Shown here: one piece after another, positions 28,361-34,039 of the stretch
Position numbering within the stretch: position 1 is the stretch's first letter
Layout: every line of letters begins with the position of its first letter
Assembly (NCBI GenBank): GCA_903869825.1
Contig: CAIQAL010000027.1
Location: forward strand, 1 to 34,039
Source of the DNA: an uncultured bacterium
Lineage (GTDB): Bacteria; Patescibacteriota; Minisyncoccia; Phycocordibacterales; UBA9973
DNA length: 34,039 nucleotides
Reading direction: 5' to 3'
Made by a program: the position numbers and the translations under genes
The notes under the pieces: model-generated
Told to the model about the DNA's origin: nothing
Databases searched by the model: none
Seen by the model: only the letters and a program-made list of their open reading frames with translations

Positions 28361-28432
28361 GGCCCTATCGTCTAACGGTTAGGACGTATCCTTCTCAAGG
28401 ATAAAATTCGGGTTCGATTCCCGGTAGGGTCA
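28361..28432 (+). tRNA. tRNA-Glu(CTC)
   Basis: GGCCCTATCGTCTAACGGTTAGGACGTATCCTTCTCAAGGATAAAATTCGGGTTCGATTCCCGGTAGGGTCA; anticodon stem TATCC/GGATA, loop TTCTCAA. Confidence 0.92.
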
Positions 28433-30089
28433 CACTTAGAGATTTTGTTCTCTTAAATTCGTCAGATAGCTTATACGGTAAAGATAATTTTGGTGTTCCA
28501 TTAAGTATTTCTTCATATGTGGGTAATTCCTCAAACACAAGGCTAAACAAACCTCTTAAAGCACTCAAATTCTTTTGTTTTACAAGCCTTTCTACTGGGT
28601 GTTCCATTAAATTTTTTACATATCTCACAAAAGCATTAATATCGTCTTCTTGAACTTCTATGCCATTTCGTTGTTTTCTAATATTAACAATCTGTAAATG
28701 TAAGTCGTTAATTTTCTTTTCAAGTTCGGTCCGTATGATTTCATTTTTTGTTGAAGTAAAAGCTTCTATGTTTTGTTTCTTCTCCGCTTCAAGCTCTATG
28801 ACAGTAGTACCAACCTGTGAAGAAAACTCACCAAGTTCTTTTTCTTTTTCTCTGAATTTATTTATTAAGGTAGCTTCAAACGCTTTAAAAAAATGCTTGT
28901 CTTTATATTTTAATTTAGCTACTAAGTTTGTAAGTTGTTTCTCAAATTCTACTTTACTGACTCCATAGTATTTATGATTTCTTGCACAATGATAAGTAGG
29001 AAAGGTTTGCCCTGATTTTCCCTTAGGTGAACTACCGAGAAATGGTTTTGGAATTACACAAACAGGACACAAAACAACTTCTTTGTGTGGAAACAAGGGA
29101 TTATCCTTCATTCGTTTCAATAGATGAGGATTATAATCTTTGTGAATTTGAATTGTGCCGTCCTTCTTTTCTTCAACATATACCTTGCCTTTATTTGCCT
29201 TATTAAATGTATCAATGCTTATAAGTCCTTTGTATTGGGTCCTAATAGGCGTTTTAAGCCATTTTTCATTGTTTACCCCGCAATAAATAGTTCTTTTCCT
29301 GTACTCTTGTAATCGTTTAACCGTAAGTCGCACACCCCCTTTTGTGCCAATAATTTTAGTTTTTGATTTGGACCACATTTTTTGCTCTTTTGAGCGATAA
29401 CCCATAGCATTTATATGGTCAACAACTTCTTGGTCTGTGTTAGTTATACTCATATCAAACATTTTGATAAAGAACTTTGCTCTGATGGGGTCTGGTTTTT
29501 GAATTACTTTTTTCTTGCCTTCTACAAAAACTTTTTCGTTTATATAACCATCATCTGCCTGTCTAACTTTATAACCCTCTCTCACTAAGTTTATTTCAGC
29601 ACCAATCATTCTAGTAAGAATTGTGTTAACCTCACTCTTGCCTTGTTGAGCCATAACGAGCTCTGTTATTTCACTAGGGCGTGTGATACTCCAATCGTAC
29701 TCAACACCAAGATGCTCAAGGGTATTCTTTGAGGGTTGTATCACTCCATTCGCATCAATTAAGCTCACACCATATTGGGCTAATCTTTGTTTTAAACTTT
29801 CGTAGCCAAGTGTTCCATTTCTCGTAAAACGGTCAATAGCACGAAAGATAAGAAATTTAACTTTATTTGGATGACTTTTAATATAGGAAACAATATCTTC
29901 AATAACAGGTCTTTCGTTTTTTCTACCAGAAAATTGTTCGGGAAAAACGTCCAATACATTAAGGTTATATCTTTTTGCCACAATTTCACAAATATTTTTT
30001 TGGTCCTCAATGCTCTCTCCTTGTTGTGCTTGTTTTGCAGAACTCACACGAAGATATATAAGACAATGTTTTTGAACAATATTTTCCAT
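28395..30089 (-). CDS. Large serine recombinase (resolvase + recombinase + zinc-ribbon + coiled coil)
   Basis: IYLRVSSAKQAQQGESIEDQ catalytic Ser region, FLIFRAIDRFTRN, CPVC...CARNH, coiled coil. The final VTLPGIEPEFYP is translated from the antisense of tRNA-Glu. Confidence 0.93.
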   Translation of the reverse strand: MENIVQKHCLIYLRVSSAKQAQQGESIEDQKNICEIVAKRYNLNVLDVFPEQFSGRKNERPVIEDIVSYIKSHPNKVKFLIFRAIDRFTRNGTLGYESLKQRLAQYGVSLIDANGVIQPSKNTLEHLGVEYDWSITRPSEITELVMAQQGKSEVNTILTRMIGAEINLVREGYKVRQADDGYINEKVFVEGKKKVIQKPDPIRAKFFIKMFDMSITNTDQEVVDHINAMGYRSKEQKMWSKSKTKIIGTKGGVRLTVKRLQEYRKRTIYCGVNNEKWLKTPIRTQYKGLISIDTFNKANKGKVYVEEKKDGTIQIHKDYNPHLLKRMKDNPLFPHKEVVLCPVCVIPKPFLGSSPKGKSGQTFPTYHCARNHKYYGVSKVEFEKQLTNLVAKLKYKDKHFFKAFEATLINKFREKEKELGEFSSQVGTTVIELEAEKKQNIEAFTSTKNEIIRTELEKKINDLHLQIVNIRKQRNGIEVQEDDINAFVRYVKNLMEHPVERLVKQKNLSALRGLFSLVFEELPTYEEILNGTPKLSLPYKLSDEFKRTKSLSVTLPGIEPEFYP

Positions 30090-31335: not shown

Positions 31336-31400
31336 AGTATCTAGATTTTAAATAAAAAAAAATATATACTGTACATACAATTAAATAAATAAACCTAACC

Positions 31401-31575
31401 CTTTCGGATTTTATTCGAGAGATATGGTTGCAAAACGTCGTAAACAAAAACCCCATCATTAGGGCGTACGTTTACGACGTTGCAACGGGAAACTGTTGCA
31501 GACCTTCGGGTCAAAGCACTAGTGGTGGGATTTTTGTGTCTCAGGTACTAGTTTTATAAATAAACACAAAAACCA
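31401..31575 (+). ncRNA. Candidate structured RNA / structured 5' leader
   Basis: 17-bp stem with 2-nt bulge 31427-31445/31470-31486; UUCG hairpin 31501-31512; loop 31445-31458 complementary to 31525-31538 (13 of 14 including one G-U); hairpin CTTTCG/CGAGAG near 31401-31421. Confidence 0.5.
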
Positions 31576-31585
31576 TATTTAATTT

Positions 31586-32560
31586 ATGGCATCAAAACAA
31601 TTAGTTTGTACGGTATGTGGATACGTTGGAGAACCTAAAAGTGCAATCGAAGGAAGCGGGTGTGTTGAAGTTCTTCTTTGGCTTTTCTTTATTATTCCTG
31701 GCTTAATTTATTCAGTGTGGCGTTCGTCTTCAAGGCACAAGGTATGCCCCAAGTGTCATAACAAGTCTCTCATACCGATTGACTCCCCAAGAGCAAAAAC
31801 AATCATGGCGGAGAGTACTACAAAGGAAGAAGGTTTGAAAAAAGAAGAAATTACGAACAGTGAAAACAAAACTGAGACAGATGAGGAATTACCCAAATAT
31901 CTTAAGTGGTGGGGCTGGTGTAAGAAACACCCAATTTGGTCAATCGTGATTTTATTGTTTGGAGCTCCGATGGTGTTTGGAATGATTTCAGGAATAGTAA
32001 GCCCAACAGATAAGAAACAAACACCGCCACCAGTCGTAGCACCATCAAAGCCTGTCTCAATGCCAACAATTACCGAAATATTAAAAAAAGCAAATATTGA
32101 CCCGTATTGGACTAGCAATAAAGTAGAAGATTATTCTGATACAACCAAACTACAAGTTGCCTCAGTTATATTTTCTAGTTATGCCGATGACGTGATAAAA
32201 GGAGAAAAAAGTTCTTCTGACGAAGATAAAAAACTAGCCTCAGAACTTAGAAAAAAGTTAGTTGCAAAACAGGTAAAAGAATACCCAAAGATGAGACAGG
32301 CTTATGCCAAATACGCTCATGACTTGCTGTGGGAGCAAGATATTGACGTGACAGCGTCAGGCTCATCAAGTACTACTTTGACGCTTGTAGGGGGCATCTT
32401 TGCCTCAAATAAAGGCATTGCTTCTATTGAAAACAACATTGAAGAAATGCTTAAAGAGCTAAGGTTTAAGAGAGTAAATTATAAATGGATACCGCATGAT
32501 GAAGACTACCAATATTTTGATTTGAAGACTCCGAGCGATGGAGAATTGAAACCTGTTTAG
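31586..32560 (+). CDS. Zinc-ribbon N-terminal, membrane-anchored hypothetical protein
   Basis: CTVCGYVGEPKSAIEGSGCVEVLLWLFFIIPGLIYSVWR...CPKCHNKSLIPIDSP, then TM segment and Pro-rich linker. Confidence 0.75.
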   Translation: MASKQLVCTVCGYVGEPKSAIEGSGCVEVLLWLFFIIPGLIYSVWRSSSRHKVCPKCHNKSLIPIDSPRAKTIMAESTTKEEGLKKEEITNSENKTETDEELPKYLKWWGWCKKHPIWSIVILLFGAPMVFGMISGIVSPTDKKQTPPPVVAPSKPVSMPTITEILKKANIDPYWTSNKVEDYSDTTKLQVASVIFSSYADDVIKGEKSSSDEDKKLASELRKKLVAKQVKEYPKMRQAYAKYAHDLLWEQDIDVTASGSSSTTLTLVGGIFASNKGIASIENNIEEMLKELRFKRVNYKWIPHDEDYQYFDLKTPSDGELKPV

Positions 32561-32562
32561 TA

Positions 32563-33369
32563 TTAATTTGATGGAATTTTGTAATTAGTAATTATGAGCT
32601 CTTTCCCTTTTGCTGCTGTTTTTTGTTTATAATTATTCATACCATATTGAAATTCCCAACTAATTATATTAGCGAAAGAGAATAATTTTCTAACTTCTGG
32701 ACAGTCATCATACGTTATCATCCATTTATGTTTAGACTTTTTCATTATTTCAGCAAATCTATAATGGTCAAATCCTTTATGTAAGTCACCCTTTTTCCCA
32801 TAAAGTTTAGACTCAGTTGCAGAAAGATACGGTGGGTCCAAAAAAATAAAAACATTTTTCCCTTCTTTTTTAATTAGTTTTTCGTAATCAAAGTCAGTTA
32901 TTTTTGTATTACTTAGTATCTCGCTGAATGGCTTTAACCTTTCTATTGATGATTGTGTAAACCTAGCCTCGAAAGCCCCTTGAGAATAACCACCTGAGTC
33001 TATCGTTCCCGAAAAGGTAATTCTATTTAAAACAAAAAATCTAGTAGCTTTATCTAAAAGATTTTTAGGGATATTTTTAACAAAATTCTTATGTAAAAGT
33101 CTGCCGTCTTTTTCATTGTCTTTTATCTTTTGTATTTCCTTTATAAGTTTTTTTGAATTATCTCTTAATTCAACCCAAAAACTATACAAGTCATTATTGA
33201 GGTCATTAATCCAAAATTTCTTATTTGGATATGTCTGTTTTAATGCAATAAAAACAGAGCCGCCACCCAAAAATGGCTCCCTAAATTCTTCAAAATTAGG
33301 CACTAACGGTAATATCTTTTTTAATGCCTTAGCTTTTCCGCCAGGGTATCTTAATGGAGTAGTAAACAT
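32563..33369 (-). CDS. D12-class N6-adenine DNA methyltransferase
   Basis: PLRYPGGKAKALKKI, FREPFLGGGSVFIAL, FIFLDPPYLSA (DPPY). Confidence 0.92.
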   Translation of the reverse strand: MFTTPLRYPGGKAKALKKILPLVPNFEEFREPFLGGGSVFIALKQTYPNKKFWINDLNNDLYSFWVELRDNSKKLIKEIQKIKDNEKDGRLLHKNFVKNIPKNLLDKATRFFVLNRITFSGTIDSGGYSQGAFEARFTQSSIERLKPFSEILSNTKITDFDYEKLIKKEGKNVFIFLDPPYLSATESKLYGKKGDLHKGFDHYRFAEIMKKSKHKWMITYDDCPEVRKLFSFANIISWEFQYGMNNYKQKTAAKGKELIITNYKIPSN

Positions 33370-33372
33370 ATT

Positions 33373-34039
33373 TTATTTATTGGGAATTATATTTATATTA
33401 TAGTCATTCTCAACCGCCTCTTCATTGAGAAGTATTAGCAATTTTTTTTCTGAGTCAGATAAATTTTCCAAATCAAAAAAAGCTTTAATTTTAGAGACTT
33501 TATTAGGAAGAGTAAGGCTCGAGGAAAGATTACCCGATAATTTTAATCCAACTTTATATGAATAATCAATATTATCTATTTTAATATACTTAATTTGAGA
33601 AAATAAAAGTATTTTAAATAGTCCGTCTTTCACATCTGCTATTCCTGGTAATTTACCATTTGTACTATTTTTAGCTTCTGTAATTGTAATTTTTTTACCC
33701 TTAATAACTAATTCATCAGATGTAAGAAAATAACTACCCCCTAAATTATTCTTCATTTCAAATACTGGTTTTTCACTTTCTAAAGAAAGGTGCTCAAGCT
33801 TATGATTTGTAGCAATCTCTCTATTCGCAGCTAGTTTTGATTTTGAGAGTGTTATCTCTGCAAACTTATTTAAGTTTATGATATTCTTATCAGAGTCATC
33901 TATTATTTTATTTAAAAAATTGATATGGTCCGATGTTTTATGAAGCTTAACAGACAAAGAATTTGATATCTTTTCATACGAGGAAACGGCCTTTTTATAT
34001 ACAGGAATAAAGTCTTTAATAAAATGCTCATTATTCCAA
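33373..34039 (-). CDS. Probable type II restriction endonuclease (5' end beyond window)
   Basis: Adjacent upstream of the methylase; DELVIKGKKITITEAKNS resembles PD-(D/E)xK. The frame stays open from 33957 to the window edge (WNNEHFIKDFIPVYKKAVSSYEKISNSLSVKLHK...). Confidence 0.6.
   Translation of the reverse strand, partial: WNNEHFIKDFIPVYKKAVSSYEKISNSLSVKLHKTSDHINFLNKIIDDSDKNIINLNKFAEITLSKSKLAANREIATNHKLEHLSLESEKPVFEMKNNLGGSYFLTSDELVIKGKKITITEAKNSTNGKLPGIADVKDGLFKILLFSQIKYIKIDNIDYSYKVGLKLSGNLSSSLTLPNKVSKIKAFFDLENLSDSEKKLLILLNEEAVENDYNINIIPNK

Follow-up and report, generated by a model that had tools for sequence, protein, structure and literature searches.

LOOT is a structured RNA named in Rfam 14, in Rfam 15 and in a structure-prediction paper (PMC7779021, PMC11701678, PMC7657543). 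No function is given for it in these three sources. Rfam holds the family as RF03000, of type 'Gene; sRNA', with a gathering cut-off of 46.4 bits. Its traits are five helices, P1-P5, of which P4 is capped by GAAA, and an internal loop of the form CCUAA/AUGG. The 11-nt GAAA tetraloop receptor reads CCUAAG/UAUGG; measurements also exist for a form with one extra A (PMC11381326).

The window (the whole stretch of DNA analysed, 34,039 nucleotides) carries a LOOT RNA at 31392-31512 on the + strand. The Rfam scan matched the model over its full length, 1-121, with 69.8 bits and an E-value of 2.5e-11, and all of the RF03000 traits are present in the match. The first-pass annotation had put the region forward as a candidate novel RNA of no known class, which it said a known Rfam family would speak against; the match refutes that claim. 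The dense pairing it had noticed is genuine, with a minimum free energy of -66 kcal/mol against a mean of -38.8 for shuffled sequences (z = -6.9). It had missed the promoter and the 5' part of the RNA, namely P1/P2 with the tetraloop receptor (31392-31429).

LOOT is widespread among the Patescibacteria. It is found in 30 of 60 genomes of relatives, with at most seven copies per genome, and in 83 of 380 genomes (22%) sampled across the group. A pattern scan of public genomes gave hosts in Nomurabacteria, Taylorbacteria, Zambryskibacteria, Kaiserbacteria and Vogelbacteria, and further ones in WWE3, Woesebacteria, Uhrbacteria and other Patescibacteria. The sole pattern match in Bacillota (L064) lacks the LOOT fold, and a phage origin was considered and rejected, with three matches in a viral collection. 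The comparisons below draw on 200 distinct copies with their flanks, almost all from Patescibacteria. The genome of the window has a second copy (G000:C13:23477-23600, L001), with the promoter and both pseudoknot strands and with no ORF close downstream. One locus found through the promoter motif described below, L225, looks by eye like a LOOT leader with every element, the pseudoknot strands included, yet falls below the Rfam gathering score. At L146, two copies stand in a row about 240 nt apart, and behind each lies a small ORF (57 and 77 aa), the two being homologous; leader and gene are thus duplicated in tandem.

The helices of the Rfam model are placed in the window as follows.

31392-31395/31426-31429, + strand: P1, from the Rfam alignment
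31400-31406/31416-31422, + strand: P2, from the Rfam alignment
within 31392-31429, + strand: P1/P2 internal loop, CCUAAC...UAUGG, an 11-nt GAAA tetraloop receptor
31436-31445/31470-31479, + strand: P3, the Rfam consensus helix, present in nearly all copies
31481-31500, + strand: P4, with its GAAA cap at 31489-31492
31501-31512, + strand: P5, hairpin GACC-UUCG-GGTC, the last helix of the Rfam model

The two sides of the receptor go together: 125 copies combine CCUAAA with CAUGG, 35 combine CCUAAC with UAUGG, and nine are crossed. The loop of P4 is GAAA in at least 184 of 199 copies, as read by a parser that gave GAAA no preference, and it is predicted to dock into the P1/P2 receptor. The P5 hairpin had been recognised correctly in the first-pass annotation. 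Of the main stem described there, the inner part, CGTCGTAAAC/GTTTACGACG (31436-31445/31470-31479), is P3, but the consensus has no place for the outer extension GTTGCAA/TTGCAAC, which takes up nucleotides of P1 and P4. The stem TGCAAC/GTTGCA (31481-31486/31495-31500) exists as well, not as an alternative to the main stem but as the consensus P4.

Four further elements involve the apical loop of P3 and the sequence beyond P5.

31443-31458, + strand: pseudoknot strand 1, in the P3 apical loop, pairing with 31523-31538
31523-31538, + strand: pseudoknot strand 2, beyond the Rfam model, placed by covariation
31451-31464, + strand: P3b, a hairpin in the P3 loop, CCC 31451-31453 with GGG 31462-31464 (3 bp, weak here)
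31518-31552, + strand: P6, ACTAGT 31518-31523 with ACTAGT 31547-31552, holding pseudoknot strand 2 in its loop; optional

The pseudoknot is conserved and covarying, and the whole helix lies beyond the last position of the RF03000 model. When the P3 apical loop of each copy was scored against the downstream strand of every copy, own pairs had a median of 27 and swapped pairs one of 14, and in 182 of 195 copies the own loop and strand scored above 95% of dissimilar swaps. Among 47 diverse rows, the pair counter found 88.0% of the pseudoknot cells paired and all 16 of 16 pairs changed on both sides; the covariation score over the 47 distinct rows was 0.691, compared with at most 0.234 for slid partners. 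In MAFFT columns picked blind to pairing, the inner pairs were 96-100% paired over 76 copies, more than in shuffles and with several pair types each. The helix is broken at 31451/31530, which is paired in about half of the copies and often has an A facing a C. The pseudoknot had thus been seen correctly at the outset, but two positions too high on its 3' side: 31445-31458 pairs with TGGTGGGATTTTTG at 31523-31536 and not with 31525-31538.

The same loop can also fold on itself. P3b reaches a hairpin score of at least 8 in 88% of copies and in 28% of shuffled loops, and its 5' strand falls within the 5' strand of the pseudoknot in 98%. P3b and the pseudoknot share nucleotides and are therefore mutually exclusive. 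P6 belongs to part of the family, with an own pairing score of at least 14 in 34% of copies, against 10% when swapped.

Upstream of the fold lie a promoter and a probable transcript start.

31365-31370, + strand: TATACT, the -10 box of the LOOT promoter (pattern match 31365-31387)
31377-31387, + strand: ACAATTAAATA, probable first 11 nucleotides of the transcript, motif ACAAYTNAATA, with the start placed by spacing

The promoter is of the sigma-70 type. The motif, with at most one mismatch, occurs in 124 of 193 copies; a distant control window has it in 2 of 193. With the motif as anchor, the 124 copies line up an extended -10 (TGnTATAAT) and a -35 upstream, both correctly spaced; the -35 of the window copy is weak by eye. 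Because the -10/-35 spacing is right, ACAAYUNAAUA should be the first 11 nucleotides of the RNA. A search of 41 relatives for a -10 followed by the motif gave 23 sites, compared with 6 for the reversed pattern, and in the genome of the window both such sites are its two LOOT copies. Outside the earlier LOOT scan, 7 of 11 such loci are SAM riboswitches (RF00162, Rfam), so that the putative transcript start is common to LOOT and to known gene leaders. These SAM leaders, with the motif directly after the -10, are L218, L221, L228, L229, L232, L236 and L237. In more distant members of the phylum, the motif also stands ahead of T-box-like leaders and of tRNA genes (L241, L242, L244, L256). It may mark transcript starts more generally and perhaps has to do with antitermination.

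Downstream, LOOT is closely tied to genes. The surroundings in the window are these.

31586-32560, + strand: downstream ORF, 324 aa, zinc-ribbon and membrane protein
32563-33369, - strand: D12-class adenine methyltransferase, beyond the LOOT gene
28361-28433, + strand: tRNA-Glu gene
28395-30089, - strand: large serine recombinase, 564 aa, its 3' end overlapping the tRNA-Glu gene

A co-directional ORF of at least 60 codons starting with ATG lies no more than 80 nt downstream in 87% of 190 copies, compared with 16% for divergent and 18% for random controls. In the window, the ATG at 31586, correctly chosen in the first-pass annotation, gives LOOT the position of a 5' leader to a co-directional gene, as is typical of riboswitches. 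Homologues of this ORF in two other genomes (L047 and L118) also stand directly behind LOOT, and its only match is a weak one to Pmp3, below the cut-off. The genes as a whole are diverse: 97 of 187 downstream ORFs are singletons and the rest fall into 21 small clusters. Among Pfam families, DNA methylases and staphylococcal-nuclease-like proteins are the commonest, with 5 of 140 each, and the downstream genes share no pathway. With no recurrent partner protein family, the suggestion that the RNA is an antitoxin or guide RNA is not supported; LOOT also brings a promoter and a downstream gene of its own, and every helix varies freely.

The proposal that the region belongs to an integrative element fares better. 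LOOT lies beside the large serine recombinase and the tRNA-Glu gene, so an element is plausible, and the overlap of these two genes is a possible integration site. The D12-class methyltransferase beyond the LOOT gene also fits an element; with an uncharacterised neighbour (together 32563-34038, - strand) it may make up a restriction-modification pair that the element carries.

Some LOOT copies have one of their own strands repeated immediately 5' of the start codon of the gene that follows. The window has one such feature.

31564-31574, + strand: ACACAAAAACC, which repeats the 5' strand of the pseudoknot ahead of the start codon and can pair with 31531-31539

Ahead of the start codon, 20% of copies repeat 8 nt or more of the 5' strand of P3 exactly, compared with 0.8% of swaps. 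The repeats mostly end 1-5 nt from the start codon and come from many families of Patescibacteria. Over 37 copies, the median duplex energy with the P3 3' strand is -19.8 kcal/mol for P3 and -18.8 kcal/mol for the start copy, and this near equality is as expected of a two-state switch. The window copy has no P3 repeat ahead of its start codon, like about three quarters of all copies, and no single mechanism was found for these three quarters. Among copies without the repeat, no part of LOOT pairs with the start region beyond chance except the pseudoknot strand, the exception being P6 and a distal stem in near relatives. This distal stem, GGATTTTTGTGT/ACACAAAAACC (31528-31539/31564-31574), had been proposed from the window alone. 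It exists, and in near relatives its letters change together (CGT class, 4 of 19 own pairs and 0 of 111 others), but across the family own pairings are no better than swaps, and it was rejected as a family-wide feature. The broader description is supported: the RNA is structured and pseudoknotted, some of its pairings exclude one another, it lies just 5' of an ATG, and it is probably a switch.

A leader that carries such pairings need not switch, and LOOT might instead be a constitutive structural leader, giving RNA stability or a landing pad for ribosomes. The unrelated genes behind it would suit such a role, as would the scarcity of Shine-Dalgarno-like sequences ahead of the starts (2.7-11%). 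The lack of an obvious ligand pocket points the same way: no conserved one was recognised, and apart from the receptor and the tetraloop few unpaired positions are conserved. However, a static element needs neither of two mutually exclusive pairings, and both are conserved; nor does it need start-site copies nearly equal to P3 in energy. A leader without switching is thus unlikely.

A second alternative is that the promoter yields a short, trans-acting sRNA and that the nearby ORF is incidental or reached by read-through. The Rfam type agrees with this, and so does the second copy in the window's own genome (C13), where the want of a gene close behind also runs counter to a leader function. 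However, the gene linkage is constant, and a trans-acting RNA is disfavoured for that reason; the ORF within 80 nt is several times as frequent as in the controls, the P3 copies are placed at the neighbouring gene's start codon, and no conserved terminator was noted ahead of the ORF, the U-run not being conserved. An sRNA of this kind appears quite improbable.

The remaining alternative, that the pseudoknot helix is an intrinsic terminator (a stem followed by CUUUUUG) and LOOT a transcription attenuator, is decidedly doubtful and was rejected as a general explanation. In its favour, the stem is G+C-rich, and 130 of the 187 copies scored (about 70%) close the strand with four or more T. Against it, many copies have TTTGTG or TTAGTG in place of the U-run with the partner strand matching, which indicates a helix with covarying pairs. 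The hairpin would also enclose P3', P4 and P5, and the SAM leaders with the same start have ordinary terminator-like hairpins further on (by eye).

The reading preferred here is that 31377 to about 31585 forms the 5' leader of the gene at 31586 and that its LOOT RNA is a cis-acting switch on accessory genes, which seems fairly likely, with the start of translation as the probable site of action. LOOT would be transcribed from its own promoter, the P1/P2 receptor would hold the GAAA loop of P4, and P3 would run into the pseudoknot as one quasi-continuous helix, so that the whole is compact. The same nucleotides could form either P3b or the pseudoknot. Some members of the family would have a further choice, with the P3 3' strand (or that of the pseudoknot) leaving its partner for the copy that stands right ahead of the start codon. 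By passing from one state to another, the RNA would uncover or mask the start region and thereby determine the expression of the adjacent accessory gene, in response to a trigger that may be a metabolite, an ion, a protein or temperature. LOOT probably turns the gene that follows it on and off; the direction of control, and action on translation rather than on transcription, we infer from the sequences. More tentatively, and with somewhat less than even confidence, LOOT may be a widespread gene-control RNA of the Patescibacteria, a tetraloop-docked, pseudoknotted leader that acts by strand exchange between P3 and its start copy at the translation start of horizontally gained genes, under some signal.

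These features turn a catalogued orphan RNA into a testable regulator, a gene leader with a promoter, a transcript start, a pseudoknot and start-site copies, and the defined extent of LOOT allows constructs for probing and for reporter assays to be designed precisely. The Patescibacteria are a huge group with very few genetics tools. Many of the LOOT genes look like accessory or defence functions, such as DNA methylases, nucleases and surface proteins, and the signal sensed by LOOT could reveal how acquired genes are controlled in these bacteria.

Compared with known systems, the window copy is like RF03000 in P1-P5, the GAAA-capped P4 and the 5' internal loop. The RF03000 model ends at P5, whereas the start motif, the promoter, the pseudoknot, P6 and the start-site copies lie beyond it. 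The c-di-GMP-I riboswitch and other RNAs with an 11-nt receptor have the CCUAA...AUGG receptor and a GAAA tetraloop in neighbouring helices, as LOOT does. LOOT differs from these RNAs in the order of its helices and in its P3-pseudoknot arrangement, and no ligand site was recognised in LOOT. The SAM-I riboswitch leaders of Patescibacteria (RF00162) resemble LOOT in the promoter with the ACAAYUNAAUA start and in the structured leader directly 5' of a gene. No similarity in the aptamer was observed, however, and the genes behind LOOT are accessory and unrelated to methionine.
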